Shown here: positions 3,686 to 58,730 of the stretch, one piece after another
Numbering within the stretch: position 1 is the first letter of the stretch
Layout of the letters: every line of letters begins with the position of its first letter
From: an uncultured Acidobacteriota bacterium
GTDB lineage: Bacteria > Acidobacteriota > Vicinamibacteria > Fen-336
Reading direction: 5' to 3'
Assembly: GCA_902826455.1 (NCBI GenBank)
Contig: CADEEV010000002.1
Location: 124,001 to 188,000, forward strand
DNA length: 64,000 nt
Made by a program: the position numbers and the translations under genes
The notes under the pieces: generated by a model
Databases searched by the model: none
What the model was told of the DNA's origin: nothing
The model's input: the letters and a program-made list of their open reading frames with translations, nothing else

Positions 3686-4227
3686 GAGCGCGGCCTGTGG
3701 TTCGCCTGTCGCCACTCCCACGGCTGCACCGGGTGCGGGTCGCGCCAGAGGCCGCGTCGTTCCGCGCGCGCCTTTTCCTCGGCGGCCCCCAGCTCCGGGT
3801 CGCGCGAGTACTTGTAGCGCCACGCCATCCCTTGCACGACGAGCTCGCGGTTGAGCTCGAAGCCGCCCACCTCCACGCGGCCGAGGGTCCGGCCGAAGTC
3901 GTCGAGGCCGCTCACGCGGACCCGGACCTGCTTGCCGAACGCGAGTCGCGACGTGGCGTCGCGGGCGGCGTCTCCGAAGGGCTGGCCCTTCTCGGGGGAG
4001 TCGACGCCCTCGAGCCGGACGCGAAACTCGTGCTTCTGCGCGTCGAGCACGCGGATCGTGTCGCCGTCTGCGACGCCCACGACCGTGCCCTCGAGGACGC
4101 GCTCAGCGGACGGCCTCTGATGAGCGGCGCGTCGGGGCGGAGACTCCGGCGGTGGGACGCCGGGTACTTCTGTCTCGCAACCGGCGAGGCCGACGACCAG
4201 GAGAAGGCCGAGGCCGAGGCGACTCAG
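3682..4227 (-). CDS. SNase-like (thermonuclease-family) lipoprotein; probable CTG start
   Basis: Residues from about 49 onward match the staphylococcal-nuclease fold: GTVVGVADGDTIRV, then VRLEGVDSPEKGQPFGDAA with the catalytic Arg/Asp pair, a central FGRTLGRV, and ERRGLWRDP at the end. These enzymes are Ca2+-dependent nucleases acting outside the cytoplasm. The first ATG/GTG/TTG in frame is GTG 4080, which would delete the first beta strand of the domain. Upstream the frame stays open and encodes a lipoprotein signal, LVVGLAGC (lipobox LAGC), beginning at CTG 4227. That CTG overlaps the upstream gene's TGA as CTGA, mirroring the GTGA overlap at the other end. I therefore extend to 4227; no other start codon is available. 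Domain call firm, start inferred. Confidence 0.8.
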   Translation of the reverse strand: MSRLGLGLLLVVGLAGCETEVPGVPPPESPPRRAAHQRPSAERVLEGTVVGVADGDTIRVLDAQKHEFRVRLEGVDSPEKGQPFGDAARDATSRLAFGKQVRVRVSGLDDFGRTLGRVEVGGFELNRELVVQGMAWRYKYSRDPELGAAEEKARAERRGLWRDPHPVQPWEWRQANHRPRS

Positions 4228-4646
4228 AAGACGACGCGTGTGGCGCGTGTCCGGGTCGCGTGCACGCCCGGTTCGCAGAAGACTTCCTGGGACCAGTCCA
4301 CACGCTCCCCGGGTCGCGTCGAGAGTGCCGTGTGCGCCGTGGAGCCGACCGTCCTGCCGCCTTCGTCCACGAGGTCGAGCTCCACGGTGAAGGCCCGCAG
4401 GCTCCGGCCGCAGCCGTTCGTCGAGACGCCGGTCACGTGACAGCTCGACCTACCCTCGTGCACGGACGACGCCGCGGTCCGAATCCGCTCCGCGCAGCGC
4501 GCCTCCTCTGCGACGCGGTCGAGGCGAGGCGCTTCGAGGGCACTGGGCGTCAACCAGAGCGCCCCGCCCAGGAACAGGGCGAGGGCGGCGGCGAGACAGA
4601 GAACCGATGCCGTCAGGATCCTGAGGAACAAGGTCGCGCTCTGCAC
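4224..4646 (-). CDS. Hypothetical membrane-anchored protein, 140 aa
   Basis: One strong N-terminal membrane segment (residues about 5-32, LFLRILTASVLCLAAALALFLGG) followed by a roughly 105-residue extracytoplasmic domain with four Cys (CAERI, CHVTG, NGCGRS, VFCEPG) that could make two disulfides. The C-terminal part reads like a beta-sandwich (FTVELDLVDEGG, GSTAHTALSTRPGERVDW). No family recognised. Start GTG 4646 lies just after an extended-minus-10-like TGCTATGCT on the minus strand, so the message may be near leaderless. It is the first gene of the minus-strand trio and overlaps the nuclease lipoprotein gene by 4 nt. Confidence 0.65.
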   Translation of the reverse strand: MQSATLFLRILTASVLCLAAALALFLGGALWLTPSALEAPRLDRVAEEARCAERIRTAASSVHEGRSSCHVTGVSTNGCGRSLRAFTVELDLVDEGGRTVGSTAHTALSTRPGERVDWSQEVFCEPGVHATRTRATRVVF

Positions 4647-4759
4647 CCGAGCATAGCAAGTTCGGGCAAAACGAGGGTGTCGGGTGACAATGTGCCCCGA
4701 GGCGGTGTCCGATCTATCTTCTCTATAGCGCGTGCCTGAGCGTCGCCTTCGTCCTGGCC

Positions 4760-5983
4760 GTGCCCTTCTATCTCTGGAAGGGACGGGGAACGGGCAAGTA
4801 CCTCAGTAACTTCCGGGAACGGCTGGGGAGCCTGCCGGGCGTCGTCGACGCCCACGGCCGGGCCTCGATCTGGATCCACGCCGTCTCCGTGGGCGAGGTG
4901 CTGGCGGCGCGTACCCTGGTGGGTCCGCTCAAGCAGCGCTTTCCCGCGATGAACGTCTTCGTCTCGACGACGACCCTCACCGGCCAGGCGATCGCACGGA
5001 GCAGCGTCAAGGACGCCGACGGGTTGTTCTACGCGCCGTTCGACTTCCGGTCGTCGGTGCGCCGCGTGCTCGACGTCGTCCGCCCGCGCCTGCTGGTGCT
5101 GGTCGAGACCGAGATCTGGCCGAACCTCATCCACGAGGCCCGCTTGCGCGGCACGCGGGTCGCGATCGTGAACGGGCGGGTCTCGCCGCGCTCGTACGGC
5201 CGCTACCACTGGATCCGCACGTTCCTGAAGCCGGTGCTCGAGCAGATCGACGTCTTCGCGATGCAGGCCGAGCCCCATGCGGAGCGGATCCGGCAGCTCG
5301 GCGCTCCGGCCGGGCGCGTGCGAGCCCTGGGCAACCTGAAGTTCGACGCCCTCGAGGCCCCGGCGCCGTCGGCGGCGCTGCAGCAGCTCTTCGCGGCGAT
5401 CGGGAGCCGGCCCGTCTGGATCGTGGGCAGCACCGTGGACAGTGAAGAGCCGCAGGTGCTCGCCGCATTCCTCCGTCTCCGCGAGAGCCTGCCCGATGCG
5501 GCGCTCGTCATCGCGCCCCGCCATCCCGAGCGCTTCGGCCTCGTGCCGGCGCTCGTCGAGGCGGCCGGCCTCACGGCGGTGCGGCGGTCGGCGCTGGGGG
5601 CTTCGGCCTGGGACGGCCGGAGCGTCCTGGTTCTCGACACCCTGGGCGAGCTCGCGCAGGTCTACTCGTTCGCGACCGCGGTGTTCGTCGGCGGCAGCCT
5701 GGCGCCGGCCGGGGGTCACAACGTGCTGGAGCCCGCCGTTGCCGGCAAGGCCGTGGTGGTCGGGCCCCACATGGAGAACTTCCAGGAGATCGCCGACCAG
5801 TTCCTCGGCGAGCAGGCGCTGGTCCAGGTGGATTCCGCCGAGGCGCTGACGCGCGAGACGCTCGCGCTCTTCCAGGACGTCGATCGCCGCAGCGCGGTGG
5901 GGCAGCGGGCCCGGGCCCTCGTCGCGCGCAACCGCGGCGCCCTCGAGCGCACGGTCGAGGCGCTCGCCGAGCTCGTGGCATGA
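4760..5983 (+). CDS. waaA: 3-deoxy-D-manno-octulosonic acid (Kdo) transferase WaaA/KdtA
   Basis: Inner-membrane glycosyltransferase that adds Kdo from CMP-Kdo to lipid IVA. Family marks: GKYLSNFRERLG near the N-terminus, WIHAVSVGEV (catalytic Glu region), LVETEIWPNL, NGRVSPRSY, GNLKFD, the GS.VDSEE loop, APRHPERF, and FVGGSLAPAGGHNVLEPA in the C-terminal nucleotide-binding half. Start is a problem. GTG 4760 gives 407 aa but removes the usual membrane anchor. In frame upstream the sequence continues as IYLLYSACLSVAFVLAVPF, which looks like the normal WaaA N-terminus, yet no ATG/GTG/TTG occurs after the in-frame TGA at 4685. ATC 4712 or CTG 4736 would be needed. First gene of the ten-gene LPS operon. 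Confidence 0.95.
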   Translation: MPFYLWKGRGTGKYLSNFRERLGSLPGVVDAHGRASIWIHAVSVGEVLAARTLVGPLKQRFPAMNVFVSTTTLTGQAIARSSVKDADGLFYAPFDFRSSVRRVLDVVRPRLLVLVETEIWPNLIHEARLRGTRVAIVNGRVSPRSYGRYHWIRTFLKPVLEQIDVFAMQAEPHAERIRQLGAPAGRVRALGNLKFDALEAPAPSAALQQLFAAIGSRPVWIVGSTVDSEEPQVLAAFLRLRESLPDAALVIAPRHPERFGLVPALVEAAGLTAVRRSALGASAWDGRSVLVLDTLGELAQVYSFATAVFVGGSLAPAGGHNVLEPAVAGKAVVVGPHMENFQEIADQFLGEQALVQVDSAEALTRETLALFQDVDRRSAVGQRARALVARNRGALERTVEALAELVA

Positions 5984-53388: not shown

Positions 53389-53545
53389 AACGACATATGC
53401 GACCCGAAGTGACGCGATCGTCACGAAAAAGGTGTATTAAGGATCACAAAGCGGCCATGTCGGTTGGCAAATGTCGCTCTGAGGCCCAGGAGCGCGTGGG
53501 GGTCGATGGTCTCCCGGCGGCTTGGACGATTCCAGGAGGAGCAGG

Positions 53546-54961
53546 ATGGCAAAAGGCGTATGGTTCTTGGGCGCCCTGACAATAGCGCTCCTATCCAACC
53601 GAACTTCGATGCTCGCTGCTGCGGAGCGAGCCCCCCTCGAGCCGTTCACGGTTGCCAGGCTGTCCAACGTTTCTGTGACGGCGACAGCAGATGGTGTCCC
53701 GTCGGCCTCGACCAGCGCAGCCGAAAAGGCGGAACGTTCGGTGACCGGCACGGAAGACCTCCATGGATGTCATGGGCGGAAGAGCTCGGCAATGTCGTCG
53801 GGAGAAGTACGAACCGTCGACTCTGAGCCCTTGGACCAGAGGAGCCTGATCGTCCTCAGTGCCTCGGCCGCAGGAGGGCACTACTTGGAAGGCGAATGCT
53901 TCTGGAACAAGGGGCACGACACGACCGCCAGCGCTCGCGCGAGGGGTTGGATCGAATACACGCTTTCGTTCCCGGCCTCGGTTCGCCCGGTACAGTATGT
54001 GGCGAACTGGATGGTTTCTTCGGATGGCAACCCAGGGTTGGCGATCGCCACCGAGGCCCGCCTCAACGATGAACCGCCCGTCGTCAACGCGAATGAGCCC
54101 GTGGCCTTCATATCGAAAGGCGGAGGGCGCTACACCTTCCGGATCAGCGCTGCCCTGGACGCCAGCAACACGGGCGCCTGCTGCTCAGACACCCGGAGCG
54201 GAACAGCCAGCGCAACCTTGAGAATCAGACGGGTTCCGCTTCTTGCATCGGCACTCCGCAGGGGAAGACTTCTCGATGACAAAGGCACCTTCACCAGCTA
54301 CCTGATCGGTGGGGCGCCGACCAGCGCCTATCTGGCCGTGGGGGCGCTCCTGCTCAACGGGGAACTGCAGTGCACGGGCACACTGGTGGGCCCAGCGACT
54401 GTATTGACAGCCGCTCATTGCGTTGCTCACGCCTTCGAAAAAGATGTGGCGGACGGTCACATGTCATTTCGATTGGGCCAGTACGCGACGGATGACTCAA
54501 AAGTCCCGTTCAAGGTGGTGGGCAAGCCTCGCTATCCCGAAACCTACCGAGAGTCCTCGGATGCCTATGTCGACGACATAGGTCTGGTGGATCTCGAGAC
54601 CGCTCCGCCCGTAACTCCGTATCGCATCAGCATCGGGACACCGCCGCTCCTCAAGGATCGGGCGCTTGATTTCGTCGGATTCGGCTACACGAAGATTGGC
54701 TCTGATCCGGCGGCGGCGGGCGTCAAGCGACACGCTTCGATGAAGATTCGAACCCTCGCGGACAAGACTTTCCTCTACGGCAACCGTAACGCCCATACGT
54801 GTTCGGGCGATTCGGGGGGGCCGGCATTCCTGGCTACCGATACTCATCTCCTCGTAGCCGGCGTGACCTCAGGTGGCGACCCGGGCTGTGCCCTTGGCGC
54901 AGTTGATACTAGGGTGGACGCCTACACGGCATGGCTCACCGCACAAGGAGCCGTCCAATGA
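53546..54961 (+). CDS. Secreted trypsin-like serine protease (S1), 471 aa
   Basis: Signal peptide (about 1-27), an N-terminal beta-rich region of about 215 residues (including SLIVLSASAAGGHYLEGECFWN and a Cys pair ACCSD), then a chymotrypsin-fold protease at about 235-470. Catalytic triad: His in LTAAHCVA, Asp in DDIGLVDLE, Ser in CSGDSGGPAF. The chain ends VDTRVDAYTAWL like S1 proteases. ATG 53546 has AGGAGGA at 53534-53540. GC and codon use are clearly lower than in the 0-53 kb region, suggesting transfer. It is coupled by a 4-nt overlap to the LpxR-type gene. Confidence 0.88.
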   Translation: MAKGVWFLGALTIALLSNRTSMLAAAERAPLEPFTVARLSNVSVTATADGVPSASTSAAEKAERSVTGTEDLHGCHGRKSSAMSSGEVRTVDSEPLDQRSLIVLSASAAGGHYLEGECFWNKGHDTTASARARGWIEYTLSFPASVRPVQYVANWMVSSDGNPGLAIATEARLNDEPPVVNANEPVAFISKGGGRYTFRISAALDASNTGACCSDTRSGTASATLRIRRVPLLASALRRGRLLDDKGTFTSYLIGGAPTSAYLAVGALLLNGELQCTGTLVGPATVLTAAHCVAHAFEKDVADGHMSFRLGQYATDDSKVPFKVVGKPRYPETYRESSDAYVDDIGLVDLETAPPVTPYRISIGTPPLLKDRALDFVGFGYTKIGSDPAAAGVKRHASMKIRTLADKTFLYGNRNAHTCSGDSGGPAFLATDTHLLVAGVTSGGDPGCALGAVDTRVDAYTAWLTAQGAVQ

Positions 54962-56289
54962 GGCGCGCGATCGTGCTGGTCGCTCTCGCTCTTGGCGGAC
55001 CCGCAGTCGCCGAGGGCAACACGTCGGTTGAACGCGCATGTTACGCGTCCTGGAAACCTGCGGATGTGGAGCTCGCGCTGGGAGTCTTCAGTGCTGAACG
55101 CCTGTGGGTTCGGCATGAAGACGCTCACGCAGCGGGCATTCCATGGGGTTTCGAGGTGTACGGCACTACCCTGGAGCCAGGGCAGCAGTTCGACGAGCTA
55201 CGCCGAACGAAATGGATCGCGGCCTTCAAGGCGACGATCGATCGCGATGGATACGACATCCCTTGTGTAGCCACCTTCGGAACGGAGGTGATCGCGCGAG
55301 GGGCCCTGCTGGTTCTGACTCCAGACACGCCACGCACCTCCTTCGCACTCAATGTCGAGCAAGATTCTGTGATCCCCCCTGCGAGCGACAAGGACTACAC
55401 GATGGGCGTTGCATTTCAATGGAGTGGGGGATGGGTGAACAGGTCCTGGATCTCCCGAGGCTTTCGGCACATCGATCCGGGCGGGCGCCTGCACGAGGGG
55501 TTCGGGGAATCGTTCCGATTCGAGTTTGGCGATAGCGCCTTCGCCCCTCTGAAGGTGAATCTCGGCCGTACAGATCCGATTGCCGACGATCGCCCGTATG
55601 CAAACCTGCTGTACGCGAGCGTCCGGCGAGAATCTGCTGACAAGCTGGGAGTGTTAGCAGATCGAGCGACGGTCACCGAACTCGTGGTCGGTGTTCTTGG
55701 CCTCGGGATTGGCAAGTCAGTGCAGACCGCTATTCACAAGGCAGCGGACGACACTATTCCTGGAGGCTGGGACAATCAGATCTCCAACGGAGGCGAACCA
55801 ACCGCCAGGTATCGAATCGCCAAGCGGTGGAGACTTCCGGTACTCAAGAAGCGGCAAGGTTGGGGTGTAGACGCCAACGGTGGGATCGAGGGAAACGCGG
55901 GCTTCTACACGAACGCCAGCGCAGGGGGGCGTCTCCGCTTTGGCAAGATCCACTCGCAATGGTATTCGTATGATCGCGTCAGTGCCGCTACATATAGAGC
56001 CGACGCAAAGCGAAAGACGCCGTTCGAGCTCTTCGCCTTCGGTTCAGGCGGCTACACGCTTTGGTTCTACAACGAGCTGCTCCAAGGGGGCTTCCGCGAC
56101 TCTGCAGTGACGCTCGCACACGGCTCAGGACAAGCGCCGCTGCGCCGAGGTATGTGGGACTGGCAGGTTGGTGGGACGCTTCGCTGGAGGTTTCTCAACC
56201 TAAGCCTCACGGAATCCCATCACACGGCATTGTTCGATGGCCCGAACTCGCGAGACCACAGATGGCGAACTCTCGCGGTGGCCTTCTAA
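54958..56289 (+). CDS. lpxR: Lipid A 3'-O-deacylase LpxR-family outer-membrane protein with N-terminal extension
   Basis: A 443-aa protein: signal peptide (1-18), a roughly 105-residue unassigned region, then the LpxR beta-barrel (about 128-443). LpxR marks: LNVEQDS...DKDYTMGVAFQW, DRPYANLLYASV, and the active-site region VGVLGLGIGKSVQTAIHKAAD...GGWDNQIS with His260 in the position of the catalytic His. It removes the 3'-acyloxyacyl group of lipid A from the outer leaflet using Ca2+. Homologues are about 300 aa, so the N-terminal extension is unusual. Codon use matches the protease gene, not the older neighbours. ATGA overlap with the protease. Confidence 0.85.
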   Translation: MRRAIVLVALALGGPAVAEGNTSVERACYASWKPADVELALGVFSAERLWVRHEDAHAAGIPWGFEVYGTTLEPGQQFDELRRTKWIAAFKATIDRDGYDIPCVATFGTEVIARGALLVLTPDTPRTSFALNVEQDSVIPPASDKDYTMGVAFQWSGGWVNRSWISRGFRHIDPGGRLHEGFGESFRFEFGDSAFAPLKVNLGRTDPIADDRPYANLLYASVRRESADKLGVLADRATVTELVVGVLGLGIGKSVQTAIHKAADDTIPGGWDNQISNGGEPTARYRIAKRWRLPVLKKRQGWGVDANGGIEGNAGFYTNASAGGRLRFGKIHSQWYSYDRVSAATYRADAKRKTPFELFAFGSGGYTLWFYNELLQGGFRDSAVTLAHGSGQAPLRRGMWDWQVGGTLRWRFLNLSLTESHHTALFDGPNSRDHRWRTLAVAF

Positions 56290-57126: not shown

Positions 57127-57226
57127 GGCGGAACCCTACACCGCCTGACAGTGGATGTCCTCCGCCGATGCCTTTCCCATGGCAATCGGACCTCGCCCCG
57201 CCGTGTCCGCTGCTATAAGCGAAGAT

Positions 57227-57748
57227 ATGGCGAAAGGAGAGTTGATCCCGCTGCGGCGCGTCGAGAGCGCCATCCTGCACCTGCGCGGCCACCGGGTGAT
57301 GCTCGACTCCGACCTTTCCGATCTCTATGGCGTCCCCGTGAAGCGCCTCAACGAGCAGACCTCCCGCAACCGCGAGCGCTTTCCCGAGGACTTCATGTTC
57401 CAGCTCTCGGTGGAGGAGACCGCTTCTTTAAGGTCGCAAATTGTGACCTTAAAGACCGGCGGCCGCGGCCAGCACCGCAAGTACCGGCCCTACGCCTTCA
57501 CGGAGCAGGGCGTCGCCATGCTGTCGAGTGTTCTGCGCGGCCCGCGCGCGGTGCAGGTGAACATCGAGATCATGCGGGCCTTCGTGCGGCTGCGGGCGTT
57601 GCTGCAGACGAACGCCGAGCTCGCCGAGAAGCTCACGGCCCTGGAGGACAAGTACGACCTGCAGTTCAAGGCCGTCTTCGAGGTGATCAGCGAGCTGATG
57701 CGACCGGCCGAAGTGCCGCAGCGGCGGATCGGGTTCGCGACGGGGTGA
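57227..57748 (+). CDS. ORF6N-domain (KilA-N-associated) protein
   Basis: A 173-aa protein with the ORF6N domain at about 5-110: ILHLRGHRVMLDSDLSDLYGVPVKRLNEQTSRNRERFPEDFMFQL, then SLRSQIVTLKTGGRGQHRKYRPYAFTEQGVAMLSSVL. A C-terminal coiled coil follows (MRAFVRLRALLQTNAELAEKLTALEDKYD). ORF6N proteins are common in phages and bacterial genomes and are thought to bind DNA. ATG 57227 was chosen; an in-frame ATG at 57155 adds residues unlike the family. A striking AT-rich palindrome lies inside the gene. Confidence 0.88.
   Translation: MAKGELIPLRRVESAILHLRGHRVMLDSDLSDLYGVPVKRLNEQTSRNRERFPEDFMFQLSVEETASLRSQIVTLKTGGRGQHRKYRPYAFTEQGVAMLSSVLRGPRAVQVNIEIMRAFVRLRALLQTNAELAEKLTALEDKYDLQFKAVFEVISELMRPAEVPQRRIGFATG
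57426..57454. repeat. AT-rich inverted repeat inside the ORF6N gene
   Basis: Perfect 10-bp arms CTTTAAGGTC (57426-57435) and GACCTTAAAG (57445-57454) around GCAAATTGT. It codes the conserved SLRSQIVTLK segment but is far more AT-rich than the rest of the gene. It may be a protein-binding site, for example for the ORF6N product itself. Confidence 0.55.
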
Positions 57749-57867
57749 GCAGTACCCGCCGTCGCGACATGGACCTCTCCTGACCAGGCAGGTGGCTACG
57801 CTTCGCTTGCGATCGGGAGTTTCCCTTGCGTCGAGGGGTCGCCCGGGACGTAGACTGGGGCAGCGCG

Positions 57868-58227
57868 ATGGCAAGCAAGAGACGTCGGCCGGATCCTCGC
57901 TGGGTGATCATCCTCGAAGATGTCCGGTCCCAGAACCGAGCCACGATCGAGGCTGTCGAGGCCTCACGTGAGGCGCTGGAACGTCGGCTCGATCGAGTCG
58001 ACGCCGAGAGCAGGTCCCGGGACGCTTCACTGGAGCTATTGATTCGCGACCTGAGGATGGACGTGCGCGAGTTGAAGGGAACGGTGCAGCAGAACGGTGT
58101 GGAGATTCGCGAGTTGAAGGTGCACGTTCAGCAGAACAGCATCGAGGTTCACGATCTGGCCGGGAAGGTGACTGCGCTGGCGCGGCTCGAAGATCGAGTC
58201 GCCGCACTTGAACGGCACGGGGCTTAG
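57868..58227 (+). CDS. Coiled-coil protein with 14-residue repeats, 119 aa
   Basis: A basic N-terminus (ASKRRRPDPRW) followed by a continuous coiled coil. Three consecutive 14-residue units start at RELKGTVQQNGVEI, RELKVHVQQNSIEV and HDLAGKVTALARLE; the first two are also similar at DNA level (about 58072-58155). Function unknown; a structural or partner-bridging role is likely. ATG 57868. Confidence 0.65.
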   Translation: MASKRRRPDPRWVIILEDVRSQNRATIEAVEASREALERRLDRVDAESRSRDASLELLIRDLRMDVRELKGTVQQNGVEIRELKVHVQQNSIEVHDLAGKVTALARLEDRVAALERHGA

Positions 58228-58292
58228 ACTTGCAGCCGTAGACGTCGTAGCAGTTACGTTACCCTGACGCCAACACAAGGAGCTGGGGCAAG

Positions 58293-58730
58293 ATGCGAGG
58301 TCACCTACCGCTCATCCTTCTGGCGTTGATGTTCGGTGGCTGCCCCCACTCGAAGCCGCAAACCACGCCGAAGCCCGAGCCGCCTGGGCCGAATGAGGCC
58401 GTCATCCTCTCGAGCCAGCCGAAAGAGCATGCGGTGATCGGTCGTGGCCAAACGGTCGACCTGAGCGTCGATGTGGGCTACAACGTCGCTACTGCTGACG
58501 AGGGAGTCCTAGGCGTTTCTGTCCGCGACCATCTCAAGAACAAGATGGTCGCGTCTGGCAACCTGCTAGCAGTTGTCGGTCGAGGCCAGGGCCATCGTGT
58601 GTTCAACGTGCGGGTCGATGTACCCAGTACCGCTCAGAACTACCTGTACGTGCAGGTCATTCTCGATGTCGTGGACGCCTCGGAAAGGCACCTGGACGTC
58701 AAGAGCGCCAGCTATCGCGTAACGCCGTAG
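58293..58730 (+). CDS. Small lipoprotein, 145 aa
   Basis: Lipoprotein signal RGHLPLILLALMFGGC (lipobox FGGC), a short Pro/Lys linker (PHSKPQTTPKPEPPGP), and a beta-sandwich-like domain (VDLSVDVGYNVATADEGVLGVSV... YLYVQVILDVVDASERHLDVKSASYRV). Resembles Ig-like or cupredoxin-type lipoproteins of unknown role. AAGGAG occurs about 10 nt before ATG 58293. Confidence 0.7.
   Translation: MRGHLPLILLALMFGGCPHSKPQTTPKPEPPGPNEAVILSSQPKEHAVIGRGQTVDLSVDVGYNVATADEGVLGVSVRDHLKNKMVASGNLLAVVGRGQGHRVFNVRVDVPSTAQNYLYVQVILDVVDASERHLDVKSASYRVTP

Follow-up and report, generated by a model that had tools for sequence, protein, structure and literature searches.

A divergent LpxR-family barrel gene overlapping an S1-fold protease gene in an uncultured Acidobacteriota bacterium

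LpxR deacylases and S1 peptidases as points of comparison

The lipid A deacylase LpxR is known mainly from pathogens, for example Salmonella and Yersinia. Mutagenesis of Yersinia LpxR identified N9, D10, S34, Q118 and H122 as residues that the enzyme needs to act on E. coli lipid A; the N9A exchange kills activity, and the inactive protein still restores regulation (PMC3486919). H122 is the proposed base of the enzyme (PMC6260217). The LpxR-family protein described here resembles those of Salmonella (3fid) and Yersinia enterocolitica (PMC3486919) in its PF09982 domain, its 12-strand barrel and its equivalents of D10, T/S34, Q118 and H122, but differs from them in having Gln135 in place of Asn9, a two-residue GG insert, an N-terminal domain of 105 residues, an operon shared with a protease gene and an Acidobacteriota host. 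The product of the adjoining gene shares with S1 peptidases such as tryptase and Vibrio VesC (6bqm) the S1 fold as recognised by Pfam, the catalytic triad, two cysteine pairs and a zymogen-like start, whereas its N-terminal ~220 residues, which are unassigned, and a histidine at position 189 set it apart. Its identity to plasmid-borne S1 proteases is 27-30% only.

Both genes lie in a 64 kb stretch (the window) of contig C2 (256 kb), from a genome of 5.26 Mb that is listed as 100% complete; publicly recorded members of its class are Acidobacteria MAGs. A preliminary description had recognised a protease gene overlapping by 4 nt an LpxR gene with some 105 extra N-terminal residues, and open reading frames, Pfam matches and the ATGA sequence confirm this arrangement (Table 1). 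The ATGA overlap makes translational coupling of the two genes plausible. Both products look exported, as had been claimed, given the signal-peptide-like stretch that can be read by eye at the start of each open reading frame.

Table 1. Features of the protease-LpxR pair in window coordinates
Feature	Position (strand)	Details	Basis
Exported S1-fold serine protease gene	53546..54961 (+)	471 aa; start ATG at 53546, stop TGA at 54959-54961	Pfam Trypsin, catalytic residues, tryptase alignment
Protease ribosome-binding site, AGGAGG-type	53534..53539 (+)	position approximate	read from sequence
Protease N-terminal region	53636..54280 (+)	residues ~31-245	no Pfam match of note
ATGA overlap	54958..54961 (+)	LpxR start ATG inside protease stop	
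LpxR-family outer-membrane barrel gene	54958..56289 (+)	443 aa; GG-insert subtype, Q135 at Asn9 position	PF09982, AlphaFold2/Foldseek, alignments
LpxR extra N-terminal domain	55012..55329 (+)	residues 19-124, ~105 residues; two cysteines (28, 103)	

The protease gene, its foreign composition and its neighbours

The protease matches the Pfam Trypsin family (E 2.9e-20, residues 255-464) and carries the catalytic triad H291 (TAAHC), D344 and S423 (GDSGG), profile and triad together placing it among the S1 peptidases; Cys 276/292 and 419/448 correspond to two usual S1 pairs. Homology to this family suggests that it is likely a zymogen, with the activating cut in front of LIGG (253-256). At the S1-pocket position, the Asp189 of tryptase that marks trypsin specificity aligns with His417, and because a histidine instead of an aspartate occupies the pocket, Arg/Lys cleavage is not expected. 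The initial label "trypsin-like" therefore stands for the fold, on the strength of the Pfam match and the triad, and falls for the specificity. The N-terminal region (~220 residues) is possibly a propeptide or an accessory domain. A search of 39 kin genomes for relatives of the protease (E 1e-5) found none.

GC3 is 0.695 in the protease gene and 0.671 in the LpxR gene, as against 0.83-0.96 in most neighbouring genes, which bears out the shared low-GC codon use noted previously. GG-type LpxR genes occur in 4 of the 193 genomes searched of the window's class, namely in the window's own and in three of one genus from another family; within the window's own family the one further LpxR match seen is part of an ordinary LpxR cut off by the end of a contig (G006). 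Relatives of the window LpxR are found in Gammaproteobacteria, Verrucomicrobiota and one distant Acidobacteriota family. Because presence is patchy and GC3 deviates in both genes alike, the lateral acquisition put forward in the preliminary description is supported, and the nearest relatives, being in other phyla, point the same way. That the two genes would have arrived as a unit rests on their composition and overlap, since homologues of LpxR and protease were not found together elsewhere.

Around the pair, a search for insertion-marking repeats and tRNAs returned short chance-like repeats only and no tRNA; the Rfam search gave no match, and no LpxR relatives were found in viral contigs and plasmids. 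An ORF6N-domain gene of the phage antirepressor type (57155-57748, + strand, Pfam E 4e-32) lies 0.9 kb downstream and may be a marker of mobile DNA. It is followed by two small open reading frames (57826-58730, + strand) whose GC3 of 0.73 is low, as in the pair; the first contains 42-nt repeats and gives coiled-coil-like matches. Assembly contamination was considered and rejected: the pair lies well inside the 256 kb contig, the composition of which is otherwise native.

The reading that we favour, with moderate confidence, is that of a laterally acquired two-gene envelope operon, which would encode a likely lipid A-trimming LpxR and a probably separate exported, non-tryptic protease sharing its transcript. 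Once exported by Sec and cleaved at the activation site, the protease would most likely act as a separate secreted or periplasmic enzyme that has transcription and translation in common with LpxR, and not as a dedicated LpxR maturase. A plausible competitor, although we lean against it, holds that the two are unrelated foreign genes, arriving jointly or successively, whose overlap is without functional meaning. Short gene overlaps are frequent in bacterial genomes, four other trypsin-family genes are present in the window genome, and at about 32 distinct other LpxR loci no homologous protease was found beside a homologous LpxR, nor any relative of the protease N-terminal region beside any other LpxR examined. 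Such chance proximity is countered by the common composition and the ATGA overlap, which fit joint arrival, and by a second protease-fold gene that adjoins another LpxR with Gln at the Asn9 position, at locus L016.

This second gene emerged from a scan for triad-pattern proteases across 40 sources (533 kb), which matched the window protease, a DegP-like open reading frame in L116, two matches in high-GC window frames that are probably due to chance, and an open reading frame of L016 (6954-7571, + strand) directly downstream of the Gln-type LpxR after a gap of 23 bp. The L016 product, probably a protease of chymotrypsin fold, matches PADLOC LmuA (E 2.2e-4) and a PHROG protease (E 1.6e-3) and nothing in Pfam. 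It lacks a signal peptide, and with 209 aa its open frame leaves hardly any room for a longer start. In sequence it is unrelated to the window protease; homologues were absent from 295 genomes of its family, from phages and from plasmids. Its fold was also modelled by single-sequence AlphaFold, and the model was discarded (pLDDT 39, Foldseek matches meaningless). At best, L016 thus represents an analogous pairing. In a rough and post hoc reckoning over ~80 neighbour positions, which takes protease-fold genes to be 0.25% of all genes by our own assumption, 0.2 protease-fold neighbours would be expected and 2 were seen.

A Gln-for-Asn9 LpxR of the GG-insert subtype

The more informative finding of this analysis is the Gln135 change together with the GG-insert subtype of LpxR. 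The open reading frame matches PF09982 over residues 124-433 (E 3e-38) with 132 bits, against a curated cut-off of 26. AlphaFold2, run on 14 sequences, predicts a 12-strand barrel for the window protein with moderate confidence, including a helix at 251-262, and the best PDB match of this model is Salmonella LpxR (3fid; E 2.1e-12, TM 0.64 by target length). By sequence the window protein is a member of the LpxR family and a putative deacylase.

The residues essential in Yersinia correspond to Q135 (N9), D136 (D10), T148 (T/S34), Q256 (Q118) and H260 (H122), so that all are kept except Asn9. The equivalents of T34, Q118 and H122 are backed by profile alignments to 3fid; these stop short of the N9 and D10 columns, whose assignment consequently relies on the first-strand ND motif seen throughout the family. 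Among 55 LpxRs compared, two of which (L091 and L101) were set to Asn by eye, Asn occupies the column in 52 and Gln in three: the window protein and those of an Alteromonadaceae MAG (L016) and an Opitutaceae MAG (L017). Because Asn9 is essential where tested and Gln stands here, deacylase activity is uncertain.

An unlikely alternative in this context is that the barrel has altered catalysis or none and would bind lipid A or signal instead of deacylating it. The loss of activity in N9A, the regulation that inactive Yersinia LpxR still restores (PMC3486919) and the rarity of Gln in the comparison would suit this alternative, yet the four other essential positions are all kept and Gln is common to proteins of three phyla at ~32% identity, a breadth that makes it look selected and not decayed. 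For a single origin of the three Gln-type LpxRs, p-AU was 0.246. Under the operon reading that we prefer, LpxR would be exported by Sec and assembled in the outer membrane, where its barrel would most probably cleave an ester-linked acyl group (3'-acyloxyacyl) off lipid A, using His260 as the base, with Gln256, Asp136 and Thr148 also in the site; Gln135 may alter the handling of metal or substrate. The window genome contains lpxC, hence the host makes lipid A.

The subtype is defined by two extra residues after GWDNQIS, that is GWDNQIS-x-GGEPT (GGEPT or GGELT), and forms a clade of 21 rows (99/84) in which Acidobacteriota, Pseudomonadota and Verrucomicrobiota are mixed. The L016 and L017 proteins share with the window LpxR the motifs QD..D[RK][DN]YTMG and GWDNQIS-x-GGEPT at 32-33% identity. 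They differ from it in their setting: L016 has another N-extension and the signal-less protease-like gene downstream, whereas L017 has neither N-extension nor protease and adjoins a sulfatase. The order of the L016 bacterium holds 12 further GG-type genes among 395 genomes, all with Asn, and its family three more among 297 genomes, divergent or partial; 273 genomes from the order to which the L017 MAG belongs gave no further GG-type LpxR at the threshold used.

Other neighbours of GG-type genes were also recorded. In three Acidobacteria of one genus (L003 24-2457, L004 99-2454, L018 about 3828-4889), a phospholipase D-like gene, recognised by eye from its HSKVWLIDYEPG motif, directly precedes the GG-type LpxR, possibly as part of a lipid-remodelling cassette. 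In 9 of the 12 GG-type loci from the order of the L016 bacterium (L075, L076, L079-L085), a TetR-like regulator (GYNGTGVKEIV..AGVPKGSFYNHF) is encoded just upstream of LpxR, which suggests regulated lipid A trimming.

The N-terminal domain and a possible proteolytic control

The extra domain of the window LpxR lies in frame between signal and barrel and has the same GC3 as the latter (0.67 in both), which argues that it is coding. No homologue was found beside other LpxRs or in family searches, and with AlphaFold2 confidence below 50, the model of the domain gives no basis for assessing a cleavable linker.

It had been suggested at the start that the protease processes this extension. As a dedicated maturation pair, in which clipping of the N-domain would switch the deacylase on or off, the two genes would explain why they overlap, why both products look exported and why the domain is unique to this LpxR; L016, one of the two other Gln-type LpxRs, likewise combines an N-extension with a protease-like neighbour, and L017 has neither. 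Such a role appears improbable, since the L016 protein is unrelated and signal-less, the homologous pair was not found elsewhere and the low model confidence gives no view of a linker. Several GG-type LpxRs in the order of the L016 bacterium also carry N-terminal extensions with no protease adjacent, so that, as a rule, having an extension does not go with having a protease neighbour. The adjacency that the preliminary description had proposed to look for in other genomes did not reappear in homologous form, and processing of the N-domain by the protease is not supported. Our search of the literature on LpxR and lipid A deacylases found no account of such a protease pairing, in agreement with that description, which knew of none. 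Less probable still is the broader idea that Gln-for-Asn9 LpxRs form a protease-associated branch, in which a co-encoded protease-fold partner controls an N-extended deacylase as a proteolytic outer-membrane switch moving between phyla.

If the link to the protease were true, we would know of no earlier case in which a lipid A deacylase is controlled by proteolysis. Independently of it, LpxRs with an altered essential residue offer a direct test of the role of Asn9, and a divergent, horizontally moving GG-insert LpxR, present in Acidobacteriota, Alteromonadales-type Gammaproteobacteria and Verrucomicrobiota, would broaden the range of organisms that trim lipid A and of the ways in which they do it.
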